IMG/VR virus record: IMGVR_UViG_3300027759_003879
Coordinates: 1 to 46,316 of that record
Direction: 5' to 3' (one strand)
DNA length: 46,316 bases
Source: a virus
In this document: positions 19,028-44,888 of the stretch, one piece after another
Layout: each line of letters starts with the position of its first letter
How positions within the stretch are numbered: the stretch's first letter is position 1
The notes under the pieces: model-generated
Told to the model about the DNA's origin: nothing
What the model saw: the letters and a program-made list of their open reading frames with translations, nothing else
Databases searched by the model: none
Translations under genes and position numbers: made by a program

Positions 19028-22000
19028 TTAAATGTTTTCGAATGATGCTCCTGTTGGAGTAATCAAGAAATCAATTTCAATGAATTCCAACGCTTTTGTT
19101 GGTTTCAAGTAAATTTTACCTGTCATTGTGTTTCTGTCTAAGTCTTCTGGTGAGTTACTTACTGTAACACGGAAGTCATACAAACCTCTGTCTCTTCTAA
19201 TAGCGTCCAAGATAGGGTTAACAGAATCCAAGAAGTCTTGTCTTACTTTAGCGTCGTTTTGTTCAAACAACAATCTTACAGAAACTGCTGAAATTAACTT
19301 ACGAGCTTGTAACAATAATCTTCTTACGTTGATTCTGTTTAATGCCGAGTCAGCAATTTGAAGTGTTTTGTTACCCCAAATTACAGTTCCAACATCAGAG
19401 AAAGTTGCGATAGGGTTAATTCTACCTTGATACAATGTATCTCTGTCTTGTTGTGTAAGTTTCTTACGAGCTTTGATTGAGTTAACCAAACCTCTTGTGT
19501 AACCCGCAGTTGCGAACCATGGGAATGAAATGTTGTCAGTCAACGCTAAGTTTCTACAAACTTCATTTGTTGGTGGTAAGTAAATTTGTGTGTTATTAAC
19601 AGTGTCTCTAACTAAAATCCATGGGTAGTAAGTTGCTGTGTAGTTAGAATCAATTCCGGTATTTACCAAGTTGTCAACCGCTTCTGTTGGGTAAATAAAG
19701 TTACCTGTTTGTACAGGAATATTTAAGTTACAGTCAGGTGTTGTACAAATGTAGATTGAATCTGCTCTGTCATATGTAATCATTGATATAGCATCTTCAA
19801 CTAAGTTTGAGTTGTTAATATAATCAATACCCGGTGTTGCAAATACGTTAATTGTTGTTGCTTCAGGGTTTGCGAATGTATTAATACCTAATAAGTAAGC
19901 GTAGTAGTCAGTGTTTGCGTAGTCTGTGAAGTTATCAATTGCAATTGGTTTGAAAGCTCCCCAACCTGTTGCGTTTGGATATCTTGTAGTTGAACAAGCT
20001 CCTTTTTGATATCCAGCACCACCCAATTGGAATCTATCACCATTTGTTCTCTTTTCAGTGTAGATATCCCAACCGTCAAAACCTTTTTGTACTAAGAAAG
20101 TGAATTTTCTTGCTTGGATTTGGTAGTAAGGGTTCGCAGGAGTATCAGGGTCAGTTTGGAATGATGCATCACCACAATCAAACGCTGGTGTTCCTGATGT
20201 TGGACCAATAGCAATTGTTACTACAGTAGCTCCTGAGTCCATGTGGAAACCTTTTGTTTGATAGTTCCATGGTTCTGCTGGGTCTTCAATACATAAATCA
20301 TTTGGTTTTTGAACACCTTTAAACATAAAGAAGTCAGGGTCATAACCAATTTGTGATGAAATACCTAAGTAAGATGTTCTTACTCTATCACCCGCACTTT
20401 GAACTGTGTTGTCTTGTCCAGCGGTATTACCAAATGGTGGGTTGTAGATGATTTCACTTGGGTAGTTATATGATGTCTTATAAACTGGGAATGGAGGTGT
20501 AGCACTTGCGTACTCTCTAATTTCGTATCCTTCAAAACCACAAGGTAATGAATCAGGGTTAGCATCTTCATTCATTTCCAACATGATGTATTTTGAATTT
20601 AATGCGTATTCACCGTCAGCAGTACCAATTTTAACAGCAATGTAACTATTTGACGCTGGGTCTAATGTACAATTTGTGAATTTCTCAATAACAACTGGAT
20701 TTGAGTCAGTGTCGTAAAATGAACGAACCGCTAAATCAAATGAACCATTAGTGTATGAAATATTTTGAATTGAAATTTTAATTTGTAAGTTTGCAGAATC
20801 ACCGTCACAAACTGTGATTATCTTGAACAATCTTTGAACTGTATTACCACGAAGTTGAGATACAACCCAAGGTGATTCAGCAGATTTGTAAGGAACCAAA
20901 TAATCAGCGATAGTATCTGTTGATGGAGAATATCTTACACCAGGTAAAGCGATTAATTCAGAGTTAATACCTCTAATGTAACCTTTATTGTATGAGTAAT
21001 TCAATAAGTTTGAGAATTTTTCTTCTACAAACAATGGAACCTCAGTTCTTATTTTACCAAAGTTTGTTTGACCAAACACTTTAGTAATGTAGTTTGTGTC
21101 TGAAGTATTCAATGATGTCATGAAACTAAAATCAGTACCATCAGCAGTTTGACCTGAAATTGCAAATTCCGCAAATGGGTTTTGTGTGATAGCCGAATAA
21201 GTTCCTGAGTCATTAATTATAACATCAGTTAATCCTGATACTGTATAATCAGGACCTGTATTTGTATTTGTGTATGTTGCAATACCTCTTGAACGGAAAG
21301 TAGCTGCAACCATGTTATTGTATTCAGTATATGCAGTACCTGAGTAGTAATAAACAGAACCTGAAACAGTTCCTGAGAAATTTCCTGAACCTAAGTTAGT
21401 CAATGATGTTACAACTGAGAACCAAGAATAACCTGTGTAATTGTCTCCTGATGAAATATTAAAGTTAGCGTAGTACCAAGAGTCATTAGTTGAAGCTGAA
21501 TAATCGTTATTAGCCGTTGTTACACCCGAAACTTCATATACGTTAGTTGATGCTGTATATGCAGATACACTTGGAGTAATCGCTGAAGATACGGTACCAT
21601 AATAGTATATTGTAGTTGCAGATGTTGCTGAACTCGCAATAATACCGCTTAATTGAGCATCAATCTCAGTTAATAAAGTACTTGTACTTCCGTCAAATTG
21701 TGTATAAGGTGTGTTCAAGTTATTTTGAATAACTGATGGGAATGAAGTTAATAAGTTTACTGTTCCGCCAGTATTACCCGAGAAATTTACAGTATAGGCT
21801 TGTGGTGAACCACTGAAACCTATTGTACCTGGGTCAACATTTGCAATTGTTGTAATTGACCAAGATGGACCTGCATCGTAACCCGATAGACCCAAAACTC
21901 TGGTAACAAACAATTGGTTAGATTGTTGTAGATAAGATTTAGCAATGTACGCCAATTCGTACTTTGGAATTTGTGTATTCACAAATTTTTCTGGAATAGT

Positions 22001-22183
22001 ACCTCCGAAATATGATTCAAAGTCATTGTAGTTTGTGATGAAAATAGGTTCAAAAGCTGGACCTGTTAATGTCTCACCCACAACCCCCAAAGTGGTTACA
22101 CCTACACTTTGAGCTACGTAACTTAAGTCATACTCAGATGTATAAACACCTGGAGAAACGAAAATTTTATTTGATACTGCCAT
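19028..22183 (-). CDS. 18: Tail sheath protein gp18
   Basis: The protein opens with KIFVSPGVYTSEYDLSYVAQ, the hallmark N-terminus of contractile sheath proteins. It ends with the conserved C-terminal domain (about 900-1051: LNRINVRRLLLQARKLISA, FLDSVNPILDAIRRDRGLYD, TGKIYLKPTKALEFIEIDF) that joins neighbouring subunits and contacts the tube. By role it contracts to drive the tube into the host. At 1051 aa it is much longer than T4 gp18 (659 aa). The extra length lies in the middle (about 115-850), Ser/Thr/Tyr-rich and probably surface-exposed beta domains. Motifs TATTTAT (22217-22223) and TATAAATA (22207-22214) both lie upstream on the coding strand. A strong terminator follows. Confidence 0.93.
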   Translation of the reverse strand: MAVSNKIFVSPGVYTSEYDLSYVAQSVGVTTLGVVGETLTGPAFEPIFITNYNDFESYFGGTIPEKFVNTQIPKYELAYIAKSYLQQSNQLFVTRVLGLSGYDAGPSWSITTIANVDPGTIGFSGSPQAYTVNFSGNTGGTVNLLTSFPSVIQNNLNTPYTQFDGSTSTLLTEIDAQLSGIIASSATSATTIYYYGTVSSAITPSVSAYTASTNVYEVSGVTTANNDYSASTNDSWYYANFNISSGDNYTGYSWFSVVTSLTNLGSGNFSGTVSGSVYYYSGTAYTEYNNMVAATFRSRGIATYTNTNTGPDYTVSGLTDVIINDSGTYSAITQNPFAEFAISGQTADGTDFSFMTSLNTSDTNYITKVFGQTNFGKIRTEVPLFVEEKFSNLLNYSYNKGYIRGINSELIALPGVRYSPSTDTIADYLVPYKSAESPWVVSQLRGNTVQRLFKIITVCDGDSANLQIKISIQNISYTNGSFDLAVRSFYDTDSNPVVIEKFTNCTLDPASNSYIAVKIGTADGEYALNSKYIMLEMNEDANPDSLPCGFEGYEIREYASATPPFPVYKTSYNYPSEIIYNPPFGNTAGQDNTVQSAGDRVRTSYLGISSQIGYDPDFFMFKGVQKPNDLCIEDPAEPWNYQTKGFHMDSGATVVTIAIGPTSGTPAFDCGDASFQTDPDTPANPYYQIQARKFTFLVQKGFDGWDIYTEKRTNGDRFQLGGAGYQKGACSTTRYPNATGWGAFKPIAIDNFTDYANTDYYAYLLGINTFANPEATTINVFATPGIDYINNSNLVEDAISMITYDRADSIYICTTPDCNLNIPVQTGNFIYPTEAVDNLVNTGIDSNYTATYYPWILVRDTVNNTQIYLPPTNEVCRNLALTDNISFPWFATAGYTRGLVNSIKARKKLTQQDRDTLYQGRINPIATFSDVGTVIWGNKTLQIADSALNRINVRRLLLQARKLISAVSVRLLFEQNDAKVRQDFLDSVNPILDAIRRDRGLYDFRVTVSNSPEDLDRNTMTGKIYLKPTKALEFIEIDFLITPTGASFENI

Positions 22184-22458: not shown

Positions 22459-23543
22459 ACGTATGGAATCGCTGGTGGTTCCAAAACAATTTGATATTGT
22501 AGTGATGCCACTTGCCCCGCATTTGTTTTTGTGATTACAAAACGAAGTGTGTCGTTTGTATTAACTTGGATTAATGGAACATCAGTTCCATAAAAGTCAA
22601 AGTTGGTTGCCCCTTGGGGTTTAATATAAACTTCATACCCATTTTCATTATTAATATTATCACTACCAAGTAATGAAAAATTTCCCGTATAATCGGCGAT
22701 TATATCTTTTGTTGTTTCTGATGCTCCAAAACTTAATGTATAGTTAAATGATGATGGATTTTCAGGATGTCTTCTTCTCTTTGGTGGTGGAACATTTCCA
22801 ACAACCTCAAAACTATTGAATACTCTTGATACCGCAGGTGCCACTTCAAATTCATCAGGGTCCAATAGGAAACCTAACATTGTAAATTCGTAGTTTTGAA
22901 TATAAAATCTTCTTCTTTGTATTTCAACAACTGACTCATCAGAAATGTTATTCATTATGATTGGAATGTAATGTCCTTCAATCTTAGTATATGCTTGACG
23001 AGATGCGAAAGTTTGAATTACATTTTTGTTGAACTCATTTAACTCTCTCATTCTATTACAAAGAATTTTAACATTGTAAGTAATATCAACAGGTACAGGT
23101 TGTGGAATCTTGTAGATATCCATACCCTTAATGTTTCCGTTCCAAGTTGGAACAGCCGCATAATAAAATTCTTTTCTGTTTGGAATGTTCCAAAGAAGTG
23201 CTGGATTACTACCATACTTTACTTCAGGTTGACGGACTACGGTGATGAATGGTAATGTTGGATTTCCGTTCAAGTCTTGGAAATCCCAAGTTTCTGTAAA
23301 CTGAGCCCAGTTCTGAGTTGTGATTATCAGGTCAACCATTGGAATAATTTTACCCGACACAACTGTTTTTAAGTCTTCTTTAACAAAATCTAAAAACCCC
23401 CTATCTAATTCTGGGTGTAATAATTGTTTTGGCAAATAAGTTCCGTCCTCAGTTATATAACTAAGTAATTCTTCTCTTCTTTGAAGAAGTATTTTCTCGG
23501 GTTTAAGATTGATTGTCGGTATAACTTTTTTAGGATATCCCAT
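22455..23543 (-). CDS. Tail terminator / sheath stabiliser, gp15-like (probable)
   Basis: The 362-aa protein matches the general plan of T4 gp15-type proteins: an N-terminal region with TEDGTYLPKQLLHPELDRGF, a central strand-rich domain (PLPFITVV-type PFITVVRQPE, DIYKIPQPVPVDITYNVKIL), a helix (CNRMRELNEFNKNVIQTF), and a closing strand with RRRFYIQNYEFTMLGFLLD. gp15 caps the finished tail and joins it to the neck. The last ~110 residues form an extra beta domain not expected in gp15 (272 aa in T4). It sits directly upstream of the sheath gene, where T4 has gene 15 nearby, and is overlapped 1 nt by the next gene upstream. Assignment is by topology and context, not strong identity. Confidence 0.5.
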   Translation of the reverse strand: MGYPKKVIPTINLKPEKILLQRREELLSYITEDGTYLPKQLLHPELDRGFLDFVKEDLKTVVSGKIIPMVDLIITTQNWAQFTETWDFQDLNGNPTLPFITVVRQPEVKYGSNPALLWNIPNRKEFYYAAVPTWNGNIKGMDIYKIPQPVPVDITYNVKILCNRMRELNEFNKNVIQTFASRQAYTKIEGHYIPIIMNNISDESVVEIQRRRFYIQNYEFTMLGFLLDPDEFEVAPAVSRVFNSFEVVGNVPPPKRRRHPENPSSFNYTLSFGASETTKDIIADYTGNFSLLGSDNINNENGYEVYIKPQGATNFDFYGTDVPLIQVNTNDTLRFVITKTNAGQVASLQYQIVLEPPAIPYV

Positions 23544-23956
23544 TACTCTTTAACTACAAATAGTTTATTTTGTGAATTTATCATGTCAACTTCTTTTGCA
23601 CGATAAACAGGCTCTTCACTGTTTTTGTAAACAAACGAATCGTGTTTATATGGGTTATACGTTACAATTTTGTCTGACGGAGGGTTTGGAATATCATTAC
23701 AAGGGTACTCACAATATTCCAAAAGTGTTCCAATTACAAATGCGTGAACATTTTTTGACTTTTCTGAACGAACTCTTTCTTTACCACCTTTTCTAACTCT
23801 AAACTCAACATCACCCAATTTAACATAATCTGCGTGCATGATAACTTTACTATCATACGTCACAGAAAAGGTATGTTTGTGTAAATTGTAATATACCATT
23901 ACTTTTTTACCCAAAAATATGTTATCGAATTGTGATTCGGTTATAAGAAGTTTCAT
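23543..23956 (-). CDS. Conserved phage protein of unknown function
   Basis: The 137-aa protein has a strand-rich core (KKVMVYYNLHKHTFSVTYDS, then ADYVKLGDVEFRVRKGGKER and SKNVHAFVIGTLLEY). The VYYNLHKHTFSV ... NVHAFVIG pattern looks like a small protein family I associate with tailed phages, but I cannot name a function. The N-terminus, MKLLITES, contains I-T-E at 5-7, again matching the T4-type prohead protease rule. It overlaps both neighbours by 1 nt, so it is translated with the neck and tail-terminator genes and is probably a virion or assembly protein. Confidence 0.65.
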   Translation of the reverse strand: MKLLITESQFDNIFLGKKVMVYYNLHKHTFSVTYDSKVIMHADYVKLGDVEFRVRKGGKERVRSEKSKNVHAFVIGTLLEYCEYPCNDIPNPPSDKIVTYNPYKHDSFVYKNSEEPVYRAKEVDMINSQNKLFVVKE

Positions 23957-24491: not shown

Positions 24492-26279
24492 TTGTTATCT
24501 TTTACAAGATTGGAAAATGTTGAGAACATAAGTAATGTGTCAGTCTTGGAAAGGAAGGCTCTCGACCTGTTGGAAACCTATTCAGGTGCCAACAACTACA
24601 TCATGCGTTTAAGACAAAAACAAATTGATAACAAAAAGTTTTATCCAACACGAGCTCAATCCGAATATATTGTAAATTATATTAACACGGTTCCAAAAGT
24701 CGCCAAGAAATGGGTTGATTTGGATGAATATTTTTCTAAAAAAATTTCTGATGAAAAATTGTTTACCAAAATTGCAACACAAGTTTATGTTGAAAAACTT
24801 TTGATTGAGAAAGACACATCTTATCATATTTGGGGGAAATTCTTTGATAGTCAAGAACTCCATGACTTTTGGTTACCCAAAGTTGCGTTGATTAAAAATA
24901 ACAAAGTTGAAAATGTTGTGATTGATTATGAAAAGTATTCACACCGTCCACCACTTGAACACCAAAAAGAAGCTGTCCAAAAATTGGCTGAGAATAAAAA
25001 ATTCATTTTGGCTGATGACATGGGTTTAGGTAAGACAACTTCAACAATCATTGCCGCTTTGGAAACGGGAGCTAAGAAAGTATTAATCATTTGTCCCGCT
25101 TCTTTGAAGATTAACTGGCAAAGAGAAATTGAAAACTATTCAGATAGAACGACAAGTATCATTGAAGGTAAAAAATGGTACGACGCTGACTTTGTTATCA
25201 TCAATTACGACATTATTAAAAATTTCCATGATGATAAAAAGAAAGCTGAATCAACAATTGTTAATTCAAAGTTTGACTTGGTGATTGTGGATGAAGCTCA
25301 CTACGTTCAGAACTCCCAAGCCCAAAGAACAAAGTTAATTAATGATATTGGAAGGAAAGTTGAACGTGTTTGGTTGTTAACTGGTACACCAATTACATCA
25401 AGACCAATTAATTACTTTAACTTATTGAGTTTAATTGACTCACCTGTTGCTCAGAATTGGATGGCATATGTAAAAAGGTATTGTAATGGTTTTCAATTCC
25501 AAGCAGGTAGACGTAAAATATGGAATGTTAGTGGAGCTTCAAACTTGGAAGAGTTAAGAGACAGAACATCACCGCTTGTTTTACGTAGATTAAAGGAAAA
25601 TGTCTTGGACTTACCTGAAAAAATTATTACACCCGTTTATTTGAGATTGAAATCAAAAGAATACGAAGAACTTATGGGTGAGTACTACGATTGGTACGAC
25701 AAAAGTGGTGAATCAGATTCATTAACACTCCAATTTACAAAACTTACAAAGGTTCGTCAGGTAATTGCTGAAGAAAAAACCAAAGCAACCATCGAACTTT
25801 GTGAAAATATTATTGAACAGGGTAAAAAAGTTATTGTCTTTACTAACTTTACAAAAAGTTTAGAGATGATATTACAACATTTCGGTAAAAGTGCCGTTAG
25901 ATTAGATGGACAAATGTCCCAAAAAGAAAGACAATTGTCTGTTGACCGTTTTCAGAATGAAGAAGATGTTACAATATTTGTTGGGAACATAAAAGCCGCT
26001 GGTGTTGGTATAACATTGACTGCCGCTGAAGCTGTTGTGATGAATGACTTATCATTTTTACCATCAGACCACTCTCAAGCAGAGGACCGTAGTTACCGTT
26101 ACGGACAAAAAAATAACGTGTTGGTTTATTATCCAATTTTCGACAACACCGTTGAAGGAATTATCTATGACATACTCAAAAAGAAGAAAAGTATCTTTGA
26201 GACAATCATGGGTGATAACGCAAACTCAATGGACTCAGTTGAAGAAATTATGAATTTAATCAACGAAATGAGAAGATAA
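24492..26279 (+). CDS. SNF2-family (SMARCAL1/HepA-like) helicase
   Basis: The protein carries all expected SNF2 motifs: I (DDMGLGKTT, about residues 175-183), II DEAH (267-270), III LLTGTP (about 296-301), and VI near the end (QAEDRSYRYGQ). Ahead of the motor, about 150 residues form a separate N-terminal region. SNF2 enzymes translocate on double-stranded DNA and can remodel forks; in T4 the UvsW helicase fills such a role, so this gene may replace it. The start is uncertain: no in-frame ATG occurs before residue 38, and the frame is open from TTG (24492), with GTG (24537) as another candidate. The gene is divergent from the neck gene with a 20-nt gap and starts the plus-strand block. Confidence 0.88.
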   Translation: MLSFTRLENVENISNVSVLERKALDLLETYSGANNYIMRLRQKQIDNKKFYPTRAQSEYIVNYINTVPKVAKKWVDLDEYFSKKISDEKLFTKIATQVYVEKLLIEKDTSYHIWGKFFDSQELHDFWLPKVALIKNNKVENVVIDYEKYSHRPPLEHQKEAVQKLAENKKFILADDMGLGKTTSTIIAALETGAKKVLIICPASLKINWQREIENYSDRTTSIIEGKKWYDADFVIINYDIIKNFHDDKKKAESTIVNSKFDLVIVDEAHYVQNSQAQRTKLINDIGRKVERVWLLTGTPITSRPINYFNLLSLIDSPVAQNWMAYVKRYCNGFQFQAGRRKIWNVSGASNLEELRDRTSPLVLRRLKENVLDLPEKIITPVYLRLKSKEYEELMGEYYDWYDKSGESDSLTLQFTKLTKVRQVIAEEKTKATIELCENIIEQGKKVIVFTNFTKSLEMILQHFGKSAVRLDGQMSQKERQLSVDRFQNEEDVTIFVGNIKAAGVGITLTAAEAVVMNDLSFLPSDHSQAEDRSYRYGQKNNVLVYYPIFDNTVEGIIYDILKKKKSIFETIMGDNANSMDSVEEIMNLINEMRR

Positions 26280-26285
26280 TGAAAC

Positions 26286-26322
26286 TTCGGCTTATTTATA
26301 GTTAATAAAAACAAAAGCCGAA
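26286..26322 (+). promoter_or_regulatory. TATTTATA motif in the loop of a hairpin before the SOD gene
   Basis: An 8-bp stem (TTCGGCTT at 26286-26293 pairing with AAGCCGAA at 26315-26322) encloses a 21-nt loop holding TATTTATA (26293-26300, sharing one base with the stem). The stem ends 3 nt before the start codon. It could fold in the helicase transcript as a weak terminator, or control translation of the SOD gene. Confidence 0.5.
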
Positions 26323-26325: not shown

Positions 26326-27879
26326 ATGAAAAATCTCAAGAACAGAATAGACGTTTTGGAAGAACAATTAGAGAAAAAAGAACAAAAAAGACAACAAGAA
26401 GTAAAACATAGAAAAGTTGTCGAAGAAGCCAAAAAAATTAGTGTAGAAAAATTACCTTATTCGTATTCATCACTTAAACAGTTCATTGACCCCGAGACAA
26501 TGAACGTCCACTACAACAAACATTACAAAGGTTACGTTGATAAGTTAAATGCCGCTTTAGGAGATAAAGACTACGGTGACTTATCTTTGGAAGAAATTGT
26601 TAAAACCATCGAACGTTTCAACAAATTTATCAGAAACCAAGCGGGTGGTGCATTTAACCATCAATTGTTTTGGAAAATGTTATCACCAAAACCAATGACA
26701 CCAAAAGGTTTAATCTTAAAGATGATTAACAAAAACTTTGGTTCGTTTACTGGGTTCAAAAAGAAATTTGATGCACAAGCAAAAGACAGATTTGGTTCAG
26801 GATGGTGTTGGTTGGTCTTAACCAAACGTGGTACCCTTAAAATTATGTCAACACCAAACCAAGACAATCCATTAATGGATGTTGTGGAACAAGGTGGTTA
26901 TCCGTTATTAGGATTGGACTTATGGGAACACGCTTATTACCTAAGATACAGAAACAGAAAAGAAGAATATATCAAAAACTTTTGGAAAGTTGTGAATTGG
27001 GATTATGTTGAAGACGCTTTGAAACAACAACTTGACAAGTCACTTAAAGAAAGTGAAAGTGCAAAAGAATTTTTAACTGAAGCGACAAAAAGTGAACCAT
27101 GTTCATCAGCCGATAGGATGGCTTCAAAACAATTCTTTAATCAAAACCGTGAAGCGTTAAACGTTTACAAAAACGCAATCATGCAAATCCTTAAAGAGGT
27201 TTTCCCTGAAAGATATTATGGAAAAGATGAATACCAACCAGGAACCATGTCAGGTATTTACAACTTGGAAGGTGATGGTAGGTCAATCATCAACTACATG
27301 AACACAAATTATTCGGCATTTTGTGTGTTGAAAAAAGATTTGAACAAATACCTTGAAAAAATCAACAAACCTTTGATTGATTTCACAAATAAGGAACCAA
27401 AAGAACAAGTTGCTGAAATGGTTAGAATGTTAAAAGTTCTTAACCACGTTAAATTCAGAGTTTTTAATCCTGAGTCAGAAACACTTAAGACAATGATGAG
27501 TGTGATGGGTGCATCATCTAAAAAGGGTAATCAAACTGAAGACGCTGTTGTTGAAAAACTAAAAAAACAATTTGGTGATGATAATGTTTCACGAATTGGT
27601 GAACTTGGTTCAAAAGAAGACATGTTAAATGGTGTTGATGTTAAAATTATTATTGATGGTAAAGAACACACCGCACAAGTTAAACCATTTAGTCATATCA
27701 CAAAAACATCTAATGACATGTACAAAGTTGATGGTACTGCAAATGTTAAAAGATATCAAACAGATTGGATGATATTCATGAAAAATCTTGGTGACATGGT
27801 GATTTTTGACAACAAAAATTCAAGAATATTTGATGGTGTTTATTTTTTCCCAATTGATGCCAAATTGTATCAATTGTAA
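26326..27879 (+). CDS. Mn/Fe superoxide dismutase fused to PD-(D/E)XK-like nuclease domain
   Basis: The 517-aa protein has three parts. Residues 1-40 form a charged coiled coil. Residues 43-235 are a full iron/manganese superoxide dismutase: metal ligands H62 (VHYNKHYKGYV), H112 (AGGAFNHQLFW), D198 and H202 (LDLWEHAYYL), FGSGWCWL, and Q179 in NQDNPLM at the position typical of manganese enzymes. It should convert superoxide to peroxide and oxygen. After a helical linker, residues about 398-517 carry E405 (NQTEDAVVEKL), D438 (NGVDVKI) and Q451-V-K453, the layout of PD-(D/E)XK nucleases. L250-T-E252 before A253 is a possible prohead-protease site between the halves. A late-type motif precedes it and the neck gene follows, suggesting late expression, perhaps virion packaging. 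SOD is certain; the nuclease call is by motif. Confidence 0.88.
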   Translation: MKNLKNRIDVLEEQLEKKEQKRQQEVKHRKVVEEAKKISVEKLPYSYSSLKQFIDPETMNVHYNKHYKGYVDKLNAALGDKDYGDLSLEEIVKTIERFNKFIRNQAGGAFNHQLFWKMLSPKPMTPKGLILKMINKNFGSFTGFKKKFDAQAKDRFGSGWCWLVLTKRGTLKIMSTPNQDNPLMDVVEQGGYPLLGLDLWEHAYYLRYRNRKEEYIKNFWKVVNWDYVEDALKQQLDKSLKESESAKEFLTEATKSEPCSSADRMASKQFFNQNREALNVYKNAIMQILKEVFPERYYGKDEYQPGTMSGIYNLEGDGRSIINYMNTNYSAFCVLKKDLNKYLEKINKPLIDFTNKEPKEQVAEMVRMLKVLNHVKFRVFNPESETLKTMMSVMGASSKKGNQTEDAVVEKLKKQFGDDNVSRIGELGSKEDMLNGVDVKIIIDGKEHTAQVKPFSHITKTSNDMYKVDGTANVKRYQTDWMIFMKNLGDMVIFDNKNSRIFDGVYFFPIDAKLYQL

Positions 27880-27906: not shown

Positions 27907-29022
27907 ATGGCAGTTATTGCAGAACCAGAAAGAACCAGACTCTATAATCGTATCCTAAATCAATTAGGTGCTCCTTTAAGAGCCGTTGAATTGGAAATGG
28001 AACAGATGGATTCCTTAATGGAATTATCTATTGGTGATTACACACAATACATCTATGATTGGTTGATTGAAACCCAATGGACCAGTTTATATGGTATGGA
28101 TTTGGCAACACAATCCGTGGCAAACGCTTTAGTTAGAAGAACATTAGATTGGGAAACTCAATACACTTACGCATATTCTAAAATTGTTGGTTTACAAAAC
28201 TCAGGTCCTTGGGTTTTGAAGAAAGACTTTTTTAAGTTAGAGGCGAATGTTCAAATATATGAAATTCCTGCAGGTCGTGAAATTAATGAATTACTTTTTT
28301 ATTCACCCGCAGAACAAAACAGTCTTCTGTTTGACCCATTTTCATTTGGGGGATTTGGTGGACCTGGTATTGGAGGGGCTGGTGGATTTGCTCAACCTGG
28401 ATGGGGTGGTGGTGGATACTTTATGTTTTCATCATATGACGCGATTGCACGTATGCAAGACGTTAACATTAAAAGAAGAATAATCCAACCCGATGTTAGT
28501 TATCGTGTAACAGCATTACCAAATGGTAAAAGAGCTATCATGTTATACAATACACCGGGTGGTAAATTTGACTTTGGTAATAACGAATTAATGAGAGGTC
28601 AAGTTTGGTATTGGTATTATGATACCACTGACGGTGACCGTGACCAATGTCTAAAAGATAATCCTGATATCGTGAAATTACCTTCCGATATCCCATTAGA
28701 CGCTTTAAACTGGCAGGACTTAAATGACCCCGCTCAGCAATGGGTAAGAAGATGGTTTACAGCCTATTGTAAAGAAACTTTAGCAAGAGTTAGAGGTAAG
28801 TTCAGTGGTAACTTAAAAACACCTGATAGTGAACTTACTATGGACTATCAGTCCCTATCTACTGAGTCTAAAGATGAAAAAGTTACTTTGGTAACTGAAC
28901 TTAAAGAAAGGTTAGAACGTCTTCGTCCCGAAAAACAAATGGAAAAAGAAGCGTCAATTGCTGAAAATTTGAACAAACAGTTGAAATTTAGAGCAATGCC
29001 TATACCAATTACAGTAGTTTAA
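27907..29022 (+). CDS. Probable neck/head-completion protein (gp13-like)
   Basis: The 371-aa protein has an N-terminal helical domain (RLYNRILNQLGAPLRAVELE, then SIGDYTQYIYDWLIETQW) followed by a strand-rich part with VQIYEIPAGREINELLFYSP, the arrangement of head-tail connector and neck proteins. A Gly-rich loop of about 30 residues (FGGFGGPGIGG) interrupts the middle, and the C-terminus ends in a charged helix (ELKERLERLRPEKQMEKEA). In T4 this slot would be gp13, at the head-neck junction. It shares a transcript with the SOD-nuclease upstream and a small protein 1 nt downstream. Structural role is likely; the gp13 label is moderate. Confidence 0.6.
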   Translation: MAVIAEPERTRLYNRILNQLGAPLRAVELEMEQMDSLMELSIGDYTQYIYDWLIETQWTSLYGMDLATQSVANALVRRTLDWETQYTYAYSKIVGLQNSGPWVLKKDFFKLEANVQIYEIPAGREINELLFYSPAEQNSLLFDPFSFGGFGGPGIGGAGGFAQPGWGGGGYFMFSSYDAIARMQDVNIKRRIIQPDVSYRVTALPNGKRAIMLYNTPGGKFDFGNNELMRGQVWYWYYDTTDGDRDQCLKDNPDIVKLPSDIPLDALNWQDLNDPAQQWVRRWFTAYCKETLARVRGKFSGNLKTPDSELTMDYQSLSTESKDEKVTLVTELKERLERLRPEKQMEKEASIAENLNKQLKFRAMPIPITVV

Positions 29023-32651: not shown

Positions 32652-34325
32652 TCAAGATTCTTTTCTTAATTCTCTTGGGTAAAAATCAAATCTATCGTGT
32701 TCAGTTGGTGTCATTAATAGTAGTCCTGGATTAATTTTTCCTTTAATTGTTTCTTGAAAAATGAAGCTCATCCATGTCTGTTCAAATGGGTGTGCCCATG
32801 TCGTATCTAAGAACATTTTTTTATTACCATGACGGGTTACAACTTGTGGCCAATTACAATAATAAATCTCACCTGACGCAAACGGAATACCATTATGAAC
32901 CTTTATATGTCTAAATTTGGTTCTTGGTGCATTTGGGTCCTGACCATGAACAGGTAAATTAGGTTTTTCAGGCCAATGTTCTATTCTAAAATGTTGTGGA
33001 ACATTATACCATGACCATTGGGTACCGTTGTCACCATAAAACTCACTGTAATTAAACTTTAAGAAATCAAAATGATTGTTCTTAGTAATTTCTATTGTAT
33101 TTCTGTATAAATTTGGAACGTATCTATTAAATCCGTTTCTACACACATCTCCTTTTTGGGGGTAAAAGAACATATCATCCTCGAAGAAAAAATGAAAATC
33201 AAATCCATTTTCTTCAGAATGTTCCGCAACCCATTGTCTACCACCACAAATACCTAAATTGTCTTTTTTAATATGTTCAAAACCATATTTTTCACAAAGT
33301 TCCGAGTATTTTTCGGTAGTTGATAAATCAGATGAGTTATCCAATAAAAACTTTTTTGGTTTATCTAAGAAATCTTTATCATATTGAGTCATCGAATCAA
33401 TCAATGTTTCAAATTGTTTTGGACTATTGAATGTAATTACATACAAAGCGGCGTTATCAGGATTCAAATCGTCATTAATTGGTGTAAAACCTTGTTTGTT
33501 TTTTCTTTCTAAAGTTTTGTTTTTCAAATCTTCAAAAAACTTTCCAAATAAACCGTTTGATTCTATTTCAAAATAATCAATTAAATCGGCATGTTTATAA
33601 CACATAATTGAGAATATTGACTCCTCAGTTCCCATAAGTCCACGAGATAACGTAGATGATAACAAATTATAATAAATCCCGTTAATGTCCCCTATCGTGT
33701 GTTTTGGACCACCAAAGAACCCACCACGAGCAACCAACTCAACCTTTTCATTAACAATGTTGTTAATTTCATTAAAGTTAAATCCATGAATTTCATTTTC
33801 GGCTTGGTATGGGAAACAAACAAATGAAAACTTGTTAATGTGGTTAGGTAATTTATCTAAAACTTTATCGTGTGTAAAATAACCAGGGTGAACCGTATTT
33901 GTTAAACCAGCATCAATCCAAAACATCATGTCTGAATTGAATGGGTCCATAATTTTAGCGTCATTTAATAAAAAAACCTTTGACATTACCAAAGGATTAT
34001 ACATTTCTAATCGTGCTTGTGTTGATTGAGATAACCAACCCGATTGATTATACCATTCAGGGTTATTCCTAATTGTTTGTATCTTATCGTAAAACTCATT
34101 TTTGAACCAATCTTGACTACGAGAAATGAACATTGTGTTACTTCTATCTCTACGTTCAAAAACAAATGATTCCAAATCAGAATCACCAAAGATAATCATT
34201 GGGTTATCAACCTTAAGTAGTTGGTCAAACTTATCCAAATAGTGTTGAAATGAACGTGACCAACCTTCACCAAGTTCATCACGTTTAATATTCCAAAGTC
34301 CGGTTACTAATGTTATTTTAGACAT
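32652..34325 (-). CDS. Two-domain glycosyltransferase (HtrL/YibB-like plus GT2-like)
   Basis: The 557-aa protein has an N-terminal domain (about 1-265) beginning KITLVTGLWNIKRDELG, with MMFWIDAGLTNTVHPGYF and RGGFFGGPKHTI, features of HtrL/YibB-type putative glycosyltransferases. The second domain (about 290-557) starts with AALYVITFNSPKQFETLIDS, has NLGICGGRQWVAEHS and FHFFFEDDMFF, the DxD-like acidic cluster of GT-A transferases. Each half should use a nucleotide sugar; donor and acceptor are unknown. The N-terminal half is clearly related to the next gene upstream, with which it overlaps by 8 nt. It is the last gene of the island in transcription order. Confidence 0.75.
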   Translation of the reverse strand: MSKITLVTGLWNIKRDELGEGWSRSFQHYLDKFDQLLKVDNPMIIFGDSDLESFVFERRDRSNTMFISRSQDWFKNEFYDKIQTIRNNPEWYNQSGWLSQSTQARLEMYNPLVMSKVFLLNDAKIMDPFNSDMMFWIDAGLTNTVHPGYFTHDKVLDKLPNHINKFSFVCFPYQAENEIHGFNFNEINNIVNEKVELVARGGFFGGPKHTIGDINGIYYNLLSSTLSRGLMGTEESIFSIMCYKHADLIDYFEIESNGLFGKFFEDLKNKTLERKNKQGFTPINDDLNPDNAALYVITFNSPKQFETLIDSMTQYDKDFLDKPKKFLLDNSSDLSTTEKYSELCEKYGFEHIKKDNLGICGGRQWVAEHSEENGFDFHFFFEDDMFFYPQKGDVCRNGFNRYVPNLYRNTIEITKNNHFDFLKFNYSEFYGDNGTQWSWYNVPQHFRIEHWPEKPNLPVHGQDPNAPRTKFRHIKVHNGIPFASGEIYYCNWPQVVTRHGNKKMFLDTTWAHPFEQTWMSFIFQETIKGKINPGLLLMTPTEHDRFDFYPRELRKES

Positions 34326-35184
34326 TTAACTCTTCTAATATTTTATAAAAACTTTTATTTTGCTCAAAAAATTCTTTTGAACCTTCCTTATGGTTATCTT
34401 CATGCCACCATATATCAAAATTTAATGGTTTGAACCAATCTTTGTGGTTTTGATACATTAAAGACATATAATGTTCTTCATAAAACAATTTATTTTGTTC
34501 CGGAATAACTAATCTAACGTAATCATCAAATTGTTTAACAATCTTATCCCATAGTTCGGTTTTTCCACCAAAAAAACCACCAATTATGTGAACACTATTG
34601 TCGTATGTTGTATAAAACTTAGGGTCAACGGTTCCTTCCCAAAAATTTCTTGAATTTTCTTTTGCAACCATTACAAATTTATCATCAGAATAGTTAATCA
34701 AGTTGGTTAAAAAGTTATCGTTGAATAATGTAGATTCATAATAACCTCTATAACCTGGTGCCGATAGATATTTATCAGGAATTAATCCTGTGTGTGATAA
34801 TCCCGCATCAAACCAAAAATAATAATCATAACTTTTATCTTCGTTCTTAAACCAAGAAAATTTAGAATACTGAATATCATAACACCTATCAGATGTTTTT
34901 ATTGCGTCAAAATTTTTGACACTACTAATTAATTCGGCATATTCATTTTGTGTTAAATCAAACAATACAAACTTTAATCTATCTTCAGATATGTTATGAT
35001 TTTTATAAAAAAATTCTTTTAAATCGTCCAATTCTCTATCAGATGTATAACAGATAAAATCCGCTTGTGACATCTTTAATAAAGATAATAGACTAAAACG
35101 ATAATGGTCTTTCCTACCGTGTCTTCCACCTAAATCGGAACCGTAAAGGTCCGAATAAATACTTGTGATTATTTTAACTCTCAT
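34318..35184 (-). CDS. HtrL/YibB-like putative glycosyltransferase
   Basis: The 288-aa protein starts VKIITSIYSDLYGSDLGG and carries YYFWFDAGLSHTGLIP (about 130-145) and a GGFFGGKTELWDKIVKQF segment, the same landmarks as the N-terminal domain of the downstream neighbour. The two look like tandem duplicates. The family is linked to surface polysaccharide synthesis in bacteria, but the activity is not defined. It overlaps its neighbours by 8 and 11 nt, implying coupled translation. Confidence 0.7.
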   Translation of the reverse strand: MRVKIITSIYSDLYGSDLGGRHGRKDHYRFSLLSLLKMSQADFICYTSDRELDDLKEFFYKNHNISEDRLKFVLFDLTQNEYAELISSVKNFDAIKTSDRCYDIQYSKFSWFKNEDKSYDYYFWFDAGLSHTGLIPDKYLSAPGYRGYYESTLFNDNFLTNLINYSDDKFVMVAKENSRNFWEGTVDPKFYTTYDNSVHIIGGFFGGKTELWDKIVKQFDDYVRLVIPEQNKLFYEEHYMSLMYQNHKDWFKPLNFDIWWHEDNHKEGSKEFFEQNKSFYKILEELNV

Positions 35185-35902
35185 TATTATTTCTTAATTC
35201 TAAACATTTATCGTAGTCCATATACCTACCCTCAAGTTTGTCGGGAAAATACACATTCCAATTATATGTCATTACATAAAAATTTGAATCTATTGTTTTG
35301 TTAATATCTGAATAATCTTTTTTTTGTACAACTAAAGGTAATTTAGCCGAAAAAGATTGTATATTAGGGTAAACCGCTCTATCTAAAAATTCATCAATTG
35401 GTACTTGCATATGACTATTTTCAATTATTTCATTAGTATTCCATTTTGAAATATATTCACATGCCTTTTTAGTTAAAATAAAACCAGATGTACCAAAAAT
35501 ACCCCTATGTTTATTTGGGTCTTTTGGTGGTAACGATGTTAAATCAACTAAGTTTTCAGAAAATTTATTAAGCGGTCTGTGAATTGATGGGGCAAAATGG
35601 AAAAAATTCCAATCATTATTACTCAATTCATCTTCAATCATTGGTATTAGATTTTTGATATATGGCATAAAAAATATATCGTCTTCAAACACCATAGCAT
35701 ATTCATACCCTCGTTCTAATATTATTTTAGCGATTTGTTGGTGAGAATAGGCACAACCTTCATAACTATTAGTGTCTACAGCGTTGAATCTTTCAAATGT
35801 CCAACCCATATGTTCAAATTCTTTTGTAACCGCCTCTAACCTATCAGGTCTCCTTTCTAAGTTAATTACAAATTTTGGTATTTCGTTAAAATTAATTTTC
35901 AT
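35174..35902 (-). CDS. GT25-family glycosyltransferase
   Basis: The 242-aa protein shows the GT25 signature: VINLERRPDRLEAV (12-25), CAYSHQQIAKIILERG (50-65) and VFEDDIFF (71-78) with the metal-binding E/D cluster. It lacks a membrane segment and should act in the cytoplasm. GT25 enzymes add galactose or glucose to lipooligosaccharide, and in eukaryotes to hydroxylysine of proteins. It overlaps both neighbours by about 10 nt within the island. Confidence 0.85.
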   Translation of the reverse strand: MKINFNEIPKFVINLERRPDRLEAVTKEFEHMGWTFERFNAVDTNSYEGCAYSHQQIAKIILERGYEYAMVFEDDIFFMPYIKNLIPMIEDELSNNDWNFFHFAPSIHRPLNKFSENLVDLTSLPPKDPNKHRGIFGTSGFILTKKACEYISKWNTNEIIENSHMQVPIDEFLDRAVYPNIQSFSAKLPLVVQKKDYSDINKTIDSNFYVMTYNWNVYFPDKLEGRYMDYDKCLELRNNNES

Positions 35903-36653
35903 ATTTTAAATCTCCTTTATTATCATAACCTCTTCTATGTGCAAAAATAACTGAATTTATTTCTAACGCCTTTTTAAGGTTTCTATTTACGTCAGTCCAA
36001 TATCCATAGATATCAATGTTTTGTGTGGGTATATAATATCTTGACGATAAAATTGATAATACACTTTGGTCGTGTCTGTGGTCTTGTTCAAACCCATCAA
36101 CACACCCTTCAATTTGGGAATATTCCCAACCTTCTTTAATTATGTTTGAATGTTTACCATTACTCTTAAAACCAACCAAACCTGACCAAAGTTGTTTGTC
36201 GTTTAATTCTTTTTCAGTTGCGTTCATTATTTCAACACATTTGTTGTGAGTATAATTTCTATTCAAATGAATATCACCCACCAAAAATATGTCTTCACTT
36301 TCAATAGTATCAAAAATAGGTTTAAGACTTTTTAATGCACACGCACCAGCATCTAACCATAGAACGTTTTTTGAAAGACTCATCGCATCATACAATGTAA
36401 ACATTTTTAAAAAATGACACTTTGTTTTAACTGTAGAAATTGTTTCGTAGATTGGAAAATCTTTTTTAAAGTCAATCACCATTACCTTTTTTAAGGTTTT
36501 TAATCTTTCAATTTCTCTATAATCTAATCCAAAATCATAAACAATGGTCATGTCAACTAAATCAAAACTATCTTTATGGATACTATTGATTAGAGTCAAT
36601 AATGATTCAAAATATGGGCTATTTGCACCTGTTATTACAACATTATTATACAT
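35892..36653 (-). CDS. Putative GT-A type glycosyltransferase (GT8-like)
   Basis: The 253-aa protein begins VVITGANSPYFESLLTLINS and has LDYREIERL, then KNVLWLDAGACALKSLKP (about 95-112), where the LDAG strand sits in place of the usual DxD motif, and later DQSVLSIL. The arrangement fits nucleotide-sugar transferases of the GT8-like group. Donor and acceptor are unknown. It overlaps its neighbours by 8 and 11 nt. Confidence 0.65.
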   Translation of the reverse strand: MYNNVVITGANSPYFESLLTLINSIHKDSFDLVDMTIVYDFGLDYREIERLKTLKKVMVIDFKKDFPIYETISTVKTKCHFLKMFTLYDAMSLSKNVLWLDAGACALKSLKPIFDTIESEDIFLVGDIHLNRNYTHNKCVEIMNATEKELNDKQLWSGLVGFKSNGKHSNIIKEGWEYSQIEGCVDGFEQDHRHDQSVLSILSSRYYIPTQNIDIYGYWTDVNRNLKKALEINSVIFAHRRGYDNKGDLKYEN

Positions 36654-37455
36654 TTTGATTCAAAAAGTTTTGGATTATCTTTTCAGGAAACATATATGCT
36701 TTCGCCAATTCAAAGTTTTTCTTAATAGATTCCATTTTTGACATATAAAGTTCAATATTTAATTTGTCTAAAATTGCTGGTAAATCCTCATCACCTTCAA
36801 AATATATAATACCGTTTTCATCAAAATATTGTGAAGTTGTTTTTGAACCGACATATATAGGGATTGTACCTGATAAGAAACAGTCCAATATTTTTTCAGT
36901 GAAATAATCAGACTCAATACTATTCTCAATAACAATTGAGAACATATAATCTTTTAACGCTTCGGTTTTAAATTCAATTGGTTTTTCACATCCAGAACCA
37001 TAAAAATCAACTCTATTATCATCCTTTAATCTATCGTAAACACGGAATCTCATTCTGTGATATGGGTTCCAATTCTTCCAAGAAAAAACACAACTAACCA
37101 TTTTAGATTTATCATGTATATTAATATCTTCTTCTCTCATCCATGTTCCACCATGTGGAATATAAACCGCATTTTCTGCTTGTGGTAAAATATTTTTATG
37201 ATGTGTAAAAATGTATTTAAAACTTTCTTTGTTTTTAACAATGTTTTGATAGTTTTCACCGTTAATAATTGGTGGTTCAATCAACCAAGCACAATTTGTT
37301 TTAGATTCATCTCTTGGTGATAAAAAACACATTCTATCAATATAAATTCCAACATCATAATTTTCGGGTTCCCTTTCCCAATTTGTTTTAGGGTCAATAT
37401 ACCTAGACAAACCTGGTTGTCCAATTAAGTTTTCATCAAATAATTTTATTCTCAT
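36646..37455 (-). CDS. GT10-type (alpha-1,3-)fucosyltransferase-like protein
   Basis: The 269-aa protein has the GT10 signature in its C-terminal half: YMFSIVIENS (170-179), DYFTEKILDCFLSGTIPIYV (183-202), with E177, N178, E187 and K188 matching GDP-fucose binding residues, and FYGSGCEKP just before. Members move fucose or a related GDP-sugar to GlcNAc-type acceptors. It overlaps the aminotransferase gene upstream by 4 nt (ATGA), a classic coupled start. GDP-activated dideoxy-amino sugars could be its donor in this context, which is inference. Confidence 0.85.
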   Translation of the reverse strand: MRIKLFDENLIGQPGLSRYIDPKTNWEREPENYDVGIYIDRMCFLSPRDESKTNCAWLIEPPIINGENYQNIVKNKESFKYIFTHHKNILPQAENAVYIPHGGTWMREEDINIHDKSKMVSCVFSWKNWNPYHRMRFRVYDRLKDDNRVDFYGSGCEKPIEFKTEALKDYMFSIVIENSIESDYFTEKILDCFLSGTIPIYVGSKTTSQYFDENGIIYFEGDEDLPAILDKLNIELYMSKMESIKKNFELAKAYMFPEKIIQNFLNQNV

Positions 37456-38546
37456 TTTTTTAAATATTTTATTATTTTATTACCAATAAAGTCAACTTGA
37501 CTATCGGTTAATTGTGGATAAGATGGTAAGATAATACACTGTTCATTTAATTTAACAGAATTAATGTCTTCATTTGGAATGTGTGAAATATATTCATGTT
37601 TTTTCATCTCATAAAACATAGGTCTCGTATCAACACCAACTTGAAATAAGTGTAATTCTAAATTTTTCTTTTGTTGCAAAGTAAACTCATTAAATCTTAA
37701 ACCAAACATCCATTCAGAATGTTCAGTATCAGGGTCAATTTGTTGAAAAGATATTTCATCAACATTTTTAAAGAGTGATTTGTAACGATTAAAAATTCTG
37801 TGTTTTTTTTCTTTAATTTCATTTAAAGATTCTAACTGTCCATATAATATTGCCGCTTGAACATTTGTCATTCTATAGTTATAACCCAAAACATCATGAA
37901 TAAACTTTTCATTTGATTGTCCTTGAGATTTAACTTTATTAATATATTCAAACACATCATCATCATTTGTTATAAAAGCCCCTCCTTCACCTGAAGTAAT
38001 GGTTTTATTACCAAAAAAAGATATTGATGACGCAAATGATTCAGTACCTGTATAACTTTCACCGTATTTACCTAAAAAACCTTCACAATTATCTTCTAAA
38101 ATAACCGTGTTTGGAAATTTAATTTTTAATTTTGGAACATTAACAACATTACCAATATTGTGTACAACTAATATAGCTGTATTATCATCAATCAATTCAT
38201 CTAATTTGGATGTGTCAAAATTCCATGTGTCTAAATCAGAATCAATTGGTATTAATTCGTAATTCTTATCAAATAGAAATGAATTCCACGCAGCAACATA
38301 AACATTATTTGGTACTATAATTTTATTAATGTGGGGGTATTTGTATTTTAACGCCAACGCCAACAAATGTGTTGCCGTAGTTCCGTTATTAGTTAATATT
38401 AGTCGTTTGCAACCAAGTAATTCTTTTAGTTTGTTTTTTGCCAAATCCAAATATTCTCCTTGTGATGAAACCCATCCAGAATCAATCGCCTTGTGAGCAT
38501 ACTCTAAATTTTTTTCATTAAAATATGGTTGATAAATTGGTATCAT
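37452..38546 (-). CDS. DegT/DnrJ/EryC1/StrS-type sugar aminotransferase
   Basis: The 364-aa protein is full length for the family and has its signatures: an opening IPIYQPYFNEKNLEYAHKAI, NNGTTATHLLALAL (54-67), the PLP-binding aspartate D152 in VILEDNCEG, and the catalytic lysine K181 in SFFGNKTITSGEGG. It should aminate a nucleotide-linked keto-sugar using glutamate and PLP, as in perosamine or viosamine synthesis. It is coupled to the FkbM gene upstream (4-nt overlap) and to the fucosyltransferase downstream. Confidence 0.9.
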   Translation of the reverse strand: MIPIYQPYFNEKNLEYAHKAIDSGWVSSQGEYLDLAKNKLKELLGCKRLILTNNGTTATHLLALALKYKYPHINKIIVPNNVYVAAWNSFLFDKNYELIPIDSDLDTWNFDTSKLDELIDDNTAILVVHNIGNVVNVPKLKIKFPNTVILEDNCEGFLGKYGESYTGTESFASSISFFGNKTITSGEGGAFITNDDDVFEYINKVKSQGQSNEKFIHDVLGYNYRMTNVQAAILYGQLESLNEIKEKKHRIFNRYKSLFKNVDEISFQQIDPDTEHSEWMFGLRFNEFTLQQKKNLELHLFQVGVDTRPMFYEMKKHEYISHIPNEDINSVKLNEQCIILPSYPQLTDSQVDFIGNKIIKYLKK

Positions 38547-39184
38547 AATTTTATAAAATAAGCATTATTATCTTTTATTAAATCAAATTTATAATTTAAG
38601 TTTTCTAAAAATAATTTTATTTGGTCTAAACCAACGTGAGGATATTCTATCGATAAAATTTGAGGTAAAAATTTAGAATTTTTCATACCTTCCAAAACTT
38701 CCATTTCATACCCCTCAACATCTAACACAAATAAATCAATTGTTTGATTGGGGAAATTTTCATTCATTAACCCATCAATTATATTGTCATATCTTGTTAA
38801 TGTCACATTATATTCTTCAAATTGACAACCTTCATGATTTAATAGCTGTTCATGTTCTAATTTGTGATTAAACGAACCATTACCAAATTTAATCCCATGA
38901 TATGGGTGAACCGCGTGTTTAAAAGACAATGTTGTTTCTTTATCACCTAAACCAAAATTAAAGTTAAATGATTTTTTTCTGTTTGAGTTTAATAACTCAA
39001 ATATTGGTGGAGATGCTTCAATATTAATACAAGACCAATCTAAACTCTCTTCAAAAAACAGTGTTGACGATTCCATAATACCATCAAATGCACCACACTC
39101 AATTGAAATCCCATTTCTTTTTTCTTGAAAATATCTTTCAAATATAAATTTATCTTGTTCGGATTGTCCGTAAAATTTGTACAT
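38543..39184 (-). CDS. FkbM-family methyltransferase
   Basis: The 213-aa protein has the FkbM plan: GISIECGAFDGIMESSTLFF near residue 25 (SAM-binding glycine-rich loop), INIEASPPIFELL, and LFVLDVEGYEMEVLEGM (150-166) with the acidic residue before the last helix. Such enzymes O-methylate sugars or other small groups. Within this island a methylated sugar is the likely product. It overlaps its neighbours by 1 and 4 nt. Confidence 0.88.
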   Translation of the reverse strand: MYKFYGQSEQDKFIFERYFQEKRNGISIECGAFDGIMESSTLFFEESLDWSCINIEASPPIFELLNSNRKKSFNFNFGLGDKETTLSFKHAVHPYHGIKFGNGSFNHKLEHEQLLNHEGCQFEEYNVTLTRYDNIIDGLMNENFPNQTIDLFVLDVEGYEMEVLEGMKNSKFLPQILSIEYPHVGLDQIKLFLENLNYKFDLIKDNNAYFIKL

Positions 39185-39996
39185 TATATTGAGTGTAAAA
39201 ATATATTATAATCTAAAAAAACCTGATTATTTAACTCACATTTAAATTGACGACATACGTTTTCATTACTCAAAGACAATAACTTATCAGTAAAAAGACT
39301 TGTACAAAAAAAACCACCACACCCAATCATGATGATGTTTTTAGAATTGGATATTATTGATAAGTCGTGTAGTATATTTTTCAAATTAATGTTGTTGGGT
39401 GTAAAATCGGTTTGTGTTAGGTCGATGATTTTATCTGAATCAATATTTTTAATAAAGTCATCATAAAGTGAATACACAACGTTACTACCTAAATGTTTAT
39501 ATTCACCAGTGTATTGTATTTCTTTTTCACCCATTATTAATATTTTCGAATCTATTGAATTCAATTTTGAGTAGAATTGTTTGGATATACTATCAAAAAA
39601 AACTCTATTGTAATCCCTTACTTTTGTAAATAAAACAACATAGTTTGAGTCAAAGGTTTCAACTAATGTATCTGAAAATTTAGACTTTAAAATGTTTCTA
39701 ACGACTGGTTCAGAAAACATCCTATCGACATAATCCAAATTTAATTCCCACTTTCTATCTATTTCAAGATTTGGTTCACATTCAATAACATTGTAATCAC
39801 TTAATAAAAATTTAATATAATCAATACAGAATTTTTTGTAGGATTTACTTCCATCTCTATAAGCATTAAGTGTAATATCGTTAATGTTTACCATTAAGGT
39901 ATCTTCTTTGGTCATACGAAGTAACATTTCACCACAAAAAAAAGTTAAGTCACCTAAACCAATAAACGTTAAGTCATATTTGTAAGTTATTGGCAT
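39184..39996 (-). CDS. Unknown glycan-island protein, possibly GT-B-like
   Basis: The 270-aa protein was not placed in a family. It has a helical and strand alternation with a SKILIMGEKEIQYTGEY stretch in the middle and a glycine-rich C-terminal strand, NIIMIGCGGFFCTSLF (near 225), reminiscent of the donor-binding half of GT-B or polysaccharide-transferase folds. Genomic position between a DegT-like protein and an FkbM methyltransferase supports a sugar-related role. Confidence 0.55.
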   Translation of the reverse strand: MPITYKYDLTFIGLGDLTFFCGEMLLRMTKEDTLMVNINDITLNAYRDGSKSYKKFCIDYIKFLLSDYNVIECEPNLEIDRKWELNLDYVDRMFSEPVVRNILKSKFSDTLVETFDSNYVVLFTKVRDYNRVFFDSISKQFYSKLNSIDSKILIMGEKEIQYTGEYKHLGSNVVYSLYDDFIKNIDSDKIIDLTQTDFTPNNINLKNILHDLSIISNSKNIIMIGCGGFFCTSLFTDKLLSLSNENVCRQFKCELNNQVFLDYNIFLHSI

Positions 39997-40002
39997 TTTT
40001 AA

Positions 40003-40650
40003 TTAATCATTATTTGGTAAAATAATTTTATTATTTTTAAAGATTTCAAACTCAGTCAAATCTCTATAACCATTTAATTCGTCTTGGTCTGCCTTGTGTT
40101 GTGGATAATTTTGCATAAGACATAATCCTTGTGCAGCATCTTGAGGGGTCATATACATATTCCACCCTATTGAACTAATATTATCTTCTTTGTAATATTT
40201 TTCACTTCTACCCTCATACCTCGCTTTTTTGAACCAATTTACCGCATCGATATTATCGGTTAAAATCATACCACCTTTACCAATCCCAAGATTTTTCTTT
40301 ATGTGAAAAGATAAACACATAAAACTATTTTCAATATACATGTTAGATGTGAATCTTTTAGCCGCATCATATATAGGATATGGTTTAAGTTGATATATAC
40401 CCGACCAATGATTTGTTGTTGGTGTGGTGTCAAATATAACATCACCACCCGCATTGATTATACTCATTGGTACTGATAAATAAGTTTTAGATGGAATTAT
40501 AACTTCTTGTACTTGTAGGTACTTACATACTAAAAATAACGCATTTGTACAACTATCAACAGAAACAGCATATGGTGCTCCTGTATAAAGAGATACTTCC
40601 TCTTCAAACATTTGAACTATTTTGTAAGGATTATGTTTTTTTATTGGCAT
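40003..40650 (-). CDS. Short DegT/DnrJ-type aminotransferase-like protein
   Basis: This 215-aa protein matches the large PLP domain of DegT-type enzymes: YAVSVDSCTNALFLVCKYL, PYPIYDAAKRF (D95) and CLSFHIKKNLGIGKGG with K119 aligned to the PLP lysine. It lacks the C-terminal small domain (full-length members have about 360-400 residues) and ends with ILPNND soon after the core. It may be a trimmed active enzyme, a partner subunit, or decayed. The sister gene 37452-38546 is complete and only distantly similar. Confidence 0.75.
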   Translation of the reverse strand: MPIKKHNPYKIVQMFEEEVSLYTGAPYAVSVDSCTNALFLVCKYLQVQEVIIPSKTYLSVPMSIINAGGDVIFDTTPTTNHWSGIYQLKPYPIYDAAKRFTSNMYIENSFMCLSFHIKKNLGIGKGGMILTDNIDAVNWFKKARYEGRSEKYYKEDNISSIGWNMYMTPQDAAQGLCLMQNYPQHKADQDELNGYRDLTEFEIFKNNKIILPNND

Positions 40651-40661
40651 AAATTAAGATA

Positions 40662-41435: not shown

Positions 41436-41445
41436 TTTAATTTTT

Positions 41446-42189: not shown

Positions 42190-42198
42190 TGTCTACAA

Positions 42199-42207
42199 CA
42201 ATAAATA
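42199..42207 (-). promoter_or_regulatory. TATTTATTG motif inside the glycan island
   Basis: This copy lies 9 nt upstream of the start at 42189, in the 19-nt gap after the 102-aa gene. It is the only clear copy within the island and suggests that at least the left part of the island is expressed with the late genes. Confidence 0.45.
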
Positions 42208-42208
42208 T

Positions 42209-42517: not shown

Positions 42518-42521
42518 AATT

Positions 42522-42938: not shown

Positions 42939-42943
42939 AAGAA

Positions 42944-44883: not shown

Positions 44884-44888
44884 GAAAC

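Follow-up and report, generated by a model that had tools for sequence, protein, structure and literature searches.

The open reading frame (ORF) at positions 26326–27879 (+) of the analyzed stretch of viral DNA (46,316 nucleotides, hereafter the window) starts with ATG and encodes, in one 517-aa frame, an Fe/Mn superoxide dismutase (SOD) joined to a C-terminal domain (C-domain) with a predicted nuclease fold. The phages concerned are T4-like, and the product is probably an internal protein of their heads, made late as a precursor that is cut into a free SOD and a free nuclease and ejected together with the DNA. A more specific version of this reading, in which the prohead protease splits a single late precursor in the capsid and the two products are co-injected, so that the particle would bring both protection against oxidative stress and a DNA-attacking enzyme, seems to us evenly balanced between true and false. 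The fusion, the invariant residues, the conserved sites, the presence of the protease and of a matching capsid site in the same phages, and the modular loss or splitting of the protein were observed; from these, we infer the packaging, cleavage, injection, both activities, and their targets.

The search of the 517-aa protein against Pfam gave Sod_Fe_N (1.9e-19) and Sod_Fe_C (5.5e-40), which together cover residues 40–230, and the SOD domain was delimited to residues 39–230 (26440–27015, +). Residues 253–517 had no match in Pfam or PHROGs. Within the SOD domain, the metal ligands H62, H112, D198, and H202 were invariant, as were Q179 and G196, the latter at position D-2. A Gln together with a Gly at D-2 is the rule for Mn preference (PMC10172142); by this rule, Q179 and G196 predict that the phage SOD prefers Mn. 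The top solved structures for this half were bacterial MnSODs with 42–50% identity and, judging by these features, it should be a Mn enzyme. Among 58 unique homologues, H62, H112, Q179, D198, H202, and E252 were invariant, E405, D438, Q451, and K453 were invariant wherever the sequence exists, and position 250 was occupied by L or I. The preliminary description of this DNA had named the SOD ligands, Q179, positions 250 and 252, and the four C-terminal residues; their positions were correct and all of them are invariant, or nearly so, in these homologues.

The SOD is the more conserved half of the protein. The mean identity between representatives was 71% for the SOD versus 44% for the C-domain, with the SOD value being higher in 350 of 351 pairs. 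The dN/dS ratios, computed for four pairs, were 0.05–0.08 for the SOD and 0.06–0.17 for the C-domain, and by this measure both halves are under purifying selection. The phage SODs formed a single clade (SH-aLRT 100) apart from 40 bacterial SODs. Since Bacteroidota supply almost all of the nearest cellular SODs, this phylum probably includes the hosts of these phages. A viral Fe/Mn SOD is listed as an auxiliary gene in a paper on a Microcystis virus.

The Foldseek results for the full-length model were filled by SOD matches and, for this reason, the C-domain was modelled alone. The AlphaFold (AF2) model, obtained with 45 relatives as input, had a pLDDT of 89.3 and a pTM of 0.82. The Foldseek matches of this model were weak but consistent; the best was I-Ssp6803I (E 3e-3), and Hjc was also found. 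When model residues 145–265, which correspond to protein residues 397–517 (27514–27876, +), were compared using VIA-align, Hjc came first (Z 9.0, 103 aligned residues, 3.3 Å), with NhoI (8.1), Eco15I (7.9), I-Ssp6803I (7.8), HhaI (7.1), and DpnI (6.6) in further rows. Models without a match can commonly reach Z values near 8, but the top rows here were nearly all PD-(D/E)XK enzymes. The invariant residues E405, D438, and Q451-x-K453 (Q451-V-K453 in the window) stand in the order typical of this superfamily, with 13 residues from D to Q. The corresponding spacing in Hjc is likewise 13 residues, and a Q variant of the last catalytic motif is known in the superfamily. In the model, residues 397–517 thus have a PD-(D/E)XK (restriction-endonuclease-like) fold, whose absence would have spoken against the nuclease assignment made from the sequence, and a nuclease function is predicted. 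A chance occurrence of the nuclease-like residues is ruled out, as they are invariant and lie on the right fold. At the sequence level, the C-domain matched nothing significantly in Pfam, PHROGs, or the PDB sequences. The helical N-terminal part of the domain (residues 253–396; 27082–27513, +) was confidently modelled, and no known family or assigned fold was found for the first 145 residues of the C-domain.

In T4, the prohead protease gp21 has L/I-x-E as its motif and cuts behind it, and internal proteins are targeted to the capsid by their propeptides (PMC9026906; PMC3012670). The interdomain linker of the fusion (27043–27081, +) carries two putative sites of this kind in tandem, L-K-E242/S and L-T-E252/A (slashes mark the possible cuts), the first lying 10 residues before the second. 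All 96 unique fusions had [LI]-x-E at residues 250–252, and 58 of the 60 unique linkers had the tandem pattern [LIVM]-x-E-[STE] ... [LI]-x-E over residues 240–252. Between positions 229 and 265 of an alignment of 40 sequences, E242, E252, and C259 were the sole invariant residues, and L/I250 came close. The idea that L-T-E (250–252) serves as a prohead-protease site, put forward in the preliminary description, gains from these results: the motif, although short, matches the T4 gp21 type and E252 is invariant, from which we infer the cleavage itself.

A further candidate site precedes the SOD. The helical N-terminal segment (residues 1–34; 26326–26427, +), which we propose to be a capsid-targeting propeptide, ends with V-E-E34/A, and E34 is 97% conserved within the otherwise variable segment. 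At this place, 72 of the 96 unique fusions had L/I-x-E, 21 had V-x-E, and 3 had neither; the window's own lineage has the non-canonical V-x-E form. The segment is unlike the MKKIxRLTES-type N-termini that are commoner in these phages. The AlphaFold confidence was lowest at linker residues 240–251 and at residues 27–35, around the pre-SOD site, as expected for exposed linkers.

The protease and its main substrate were sought in related records. PF03420 (gp21 family, S77 protease) and PF07068 (gp23) occurred together in 9 of 15 of them, and the gp23 of the relatives contains QASHLINE/A at residues 58–60. As this gp23 has an L/I-x-E-type site, the protease of these phages probably accepts the same motif.

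The fusion gene had been placed between a helicase and a neck gene under a late-type motif, and both observations hold. Family matches identified an SNF2-type helicase gene upstream (24492–26279, +) and a neck (head-tail adaptor) gene downstream (27907–29022, +; PHROG 211), and the loci of relatives that reach far enough have the same order: SNF2 helicase, SOD with C-domain, neck gene, small ORF, and DNA polymerase on the opposite strand. The motif TATTTAT was present within 50 nt upstream of the fusion gene in 69 of 79 unique relatives versus a background of 0.010 expected per search window. In our stretch, it lies at 26293–26299, and copies also precede the sheath, 1624-aa, 616-aa, and neck genes, the last at 27888. 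This placement fits late expression, at the time of head making. Directly before the ATG (26286–26322, +), the copy of the fusion gene is flanked by the arms of an inverted repeat, TTCGGCTT/AAGCCGAA, and occupies its loop. TATTTAT is apparently what this clade uses as its late motif, unlike T4, which has TATAAATA.

Other genes of the window were also recorded. Two very large tail-region proteins of 2177 aa (2958–9491) and 1624 aa (9801–14675) were without a family match, the tail sheath is unusually long (1051 aa; 19028–22183), and a run of glycosyltransferase, aminotransferase, and methyltransferase genes occupies 32652–44901, including a 421-aa glycosyltransferase of PHROG 24687.

Searching viral contigs with the protein yielded 216 related loci, and a profile search with the C-domain at least 424. 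The SOD was in frame with the C-domain in 180 of the 226 C-domain ORFs examined, which come from overlapping searches and are not all independent, and 12 further loci of a divergent branch appear to hold the same fusion. With about 180 open fusions in one syntenic slot, an assembly artefact or a pair of frameshifted neighbours is ruled out as the origin of the join, and the fusion is an old one. There were two exceptions. In one locus (L121), a 1-nt deletion in the linker (2959–3010) puts the SOD and the C-domain in different frames, which is either a sequencing error or a recent break. In the other (L200), the SOD is a 241-aa gene of its own, with the N-peptide and LITE/MKKIG, immediately upstream of a separate C-domain gene.

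Forms without the SOD were found as well. Loci L216–L223 read SINE/MKKIEIEKLKSIISE/GKSERCS, the SOD being absent between two kept sites, while L143 and its relatives have the N-peptide, LSE, and then the C-domain alone. Several short SOD-less forms keep the nuclease gene and have no linker site (L190–L192, with L-I-Q; L202; L225/L228), and in some of these (L190–L192 and L225/L228) the site is gone together with the extension. Thus, an extension to be removed usually seems to come with a site for its removal. The SOD-less records, which include fragments, yielded no second SOD. A 735-kb phage has a stand-alone C-domain, to which no relatives were found in the viral contigs searched. These variants indicate that the nuclease is the constant part and the SOD a module. 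In the C-domain tree, the fusion was the widespread state and the label needed only two changes: most SOD-less forms fell into one clade (100/100), and another was placed within the fused group, on one branch of its own. The root of this tree is unsure because the outgroup is very distant. An uncultured marine phage protein of 1113 aa (BFVD A0A8D9CCA0) contains the C-domain fold (TM 0.81) within a much longer chain, which suggests that other partners of the C-domain may exist.

The reading as a cleaved internal head protein would work as follows. The N-terminal segment, and perhaps also the linker, would carry the precursor into the prohead core, where the phage S77 (gp21-type) protease would cut after L/I/V-x-E at about E34, E242, and E252. 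The products would be a Mn-type SOD of ~210 residues and a PD-(D/E)XK nuclease of ~265 residues. Both would be kept in the head along with the packaged DNA and accompany it into the cell, and could thus act ahead of any phage gene expression. The nuclease might attack host or competing DNA, process the incoming DNA, or take part in head completion. The SOD would clear superoxide around the packaged or incoming genome; protection of this DNA is its simplest role, although it may instead protect the virion or act in the infected cell. T4 offers precedents that support each of these steps in kind: the phage processes and ejects its internal proteins, and a T4 targeting sequence has been used to package foreign enzymes, among them staphylococcal nuclease (PMC9026906; PMC3012670). 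Several points count against the model. The proposed 252-residue leader is much longer than the T4 propeptides, which have 7–65 residues (PMC9026906), L/I-x-E is short, the pre-SOD site of the window's lineage is of the V-x-E type, and 3 of the 96 fusions lack a pre-SOD site. In addition, the N-terminal segment differs from the commoner N-termini of these phages, and the short SOD-less forms that have lost the linker site still have the nuclease gene.

The protein could instead act in the infected cell as a late enzyme with two functions and never enter the capsid; the fusion would then only ensure equal amounts of a SOD and a nuclease, and the L-x-E residues would be structural. The late motif upstream of the gene agrees with this, an Hjc-like fold would suit the resolution of replicated DNA, and other phage SODs, such as those of PA5oct-like phages, match the SOD part only. 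We nevertheless consider it unlikely, since it leaves unexplained why E242 and E252 are invariant and L/I250 nearly so in a linker that otherwise varies and is unfolded in the AlphaFold model, and why the N-peptides of SOD-less and split forms end with the same motif.

The position of the gene raises another alternative, namely that the C-domain is a head-completion or neck-assembly factor, the counterpart of T4 gp4, rather than an injected nuclease, and that the SOD rides along. T4 gp4 is named head completion nuclease in UniProt. The gene lies directly before the neck gene and is retained in every variant, and six of these records had no match to T4 gp4 in a single-sequence comparison. The same kind of comparison detected no sequence similarity between the C-domain and T4 gp4, however, and the N-peptide and protease sites would have no explanation, which makes this role quite unlikely.

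It is very unlikely that the SOD and N-peptide are merely a removable carrier that brings the nuclease into the prohead or holds it inactive and is then expelled or degraded, with the dismutase activity being incidental: T4 propeptides are indeed removed and mostly leave the head (PMC9026906), and the nuclease is the part retained in all variants, but the SOD ligands and second-sphere residues are invariant, the SOD is the better conserved half (omega ~0.05–0.08), and in the split locus it persists as an independent gene that has an N-peptide and a site of its own. The suggestion that the fusion couples metal chemistry to DNA cutting was not supported, as the sites in the linker, the relatives without a SOD, and the locus with two separate genes all point to enzymes that work apart.

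N-peptides with similar features were noticed on other proteins of these phages. About 10 ORFs of a relative genome, G001 (L261–L273, L104, L105, L109), share an N-peptide like MKKIIRLTESDLxxIVRRVISEQ with two L-x-E sites; the examples in G001 are at 102905–103375, 170758–171561, 186729–187427, 192274–192753, and 252537–252872. The tandem motif occurred in 18 of 343 N-termini versus 19 of 1694 internal windows (p 6e-6), while [LI]xE[AGS] alone was little enriched near N-termini (22 vs. 16 of 160). Peptides of the MKKIIRLTES type are therefore candidate capsid-targeting peptides that may mark a set of injected proteins. A 137-aa ORF of the window (23543–23956, –; PHROG 586, unknown function) starts with MKLLITESQ, which resembles them.

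If the precursor described here is packaged and cut, it would be, to our knowledge, the first SOD carried within a phage particle, and nature would here provide an example of a single head precursor that delivers two enzymes. Superoxide would then seem to be a real danger to free virions or when the phage enters the cell. The old question of which cargo T4-like phages of uncultured hosts inject becomes testable: the conserved L-x-E sites and the SOD-less and split variants are ready-made controls, and the N-peptides could mark other injected proteins.

We know of no described SOD–nuclease fusion or packaged phage SOD, and no paper on either was found in the literature searched, the coverage of which leaves out most subscription journals. 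Homologues are already public, deposited simply as "superoxide dismutase"; the proposed two-enzyme precursor would be unusual among internal head proteins with targeting peptides. One 501-aa protein of an uncultured Caudovirales phage (A0A6J5L953), annotated as "superoxide dismutase" only, matches the C-domain in its predicted structure (257 columns, 34% identity), and a fusion of this kind would agree with its length and name. The Fe/Mn SODs of the Pseudomonas phage PA5oct group and Vibrio phage 2.275.O are ~29–31% identical and match the SOD part only. The SodFM1 enzymes of Bacteroidota, the nearest cellular relatives of the phage SOD, share its fold, all ligands, and the Mn-type second sphere; unlike them, the phage SOD has an N-terminal segment, a linker with protease sites, and a nuclease-fold fusion partner, and it forms a clade separate from the bacterial SODs sampled. 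Hjc, NhoI, DpnI, and I-Ssp6803I have the core fold of the C-domain and the order E ... D ... (E/Q)-x-K, whereas the C-domain has Q in place of E in the last motif, an extra helical front of 145 residues, and no detectable sequence similarity to these enzymes. The closest parallel to the proposed precursor as a whole is provided by the T4 internal proteins IPI, IPII, IPIII, and Alt, which are likewise late proteins with an N-terminal propeptide ending in an L/I-x-E-type site, in phages with the same protease family and a gp23-type capsid. Each of these has one mature part, none of which is a SOD, whereas the fusion, for which packaging is predicted, has two enzyme domains with putative protease sites between them.
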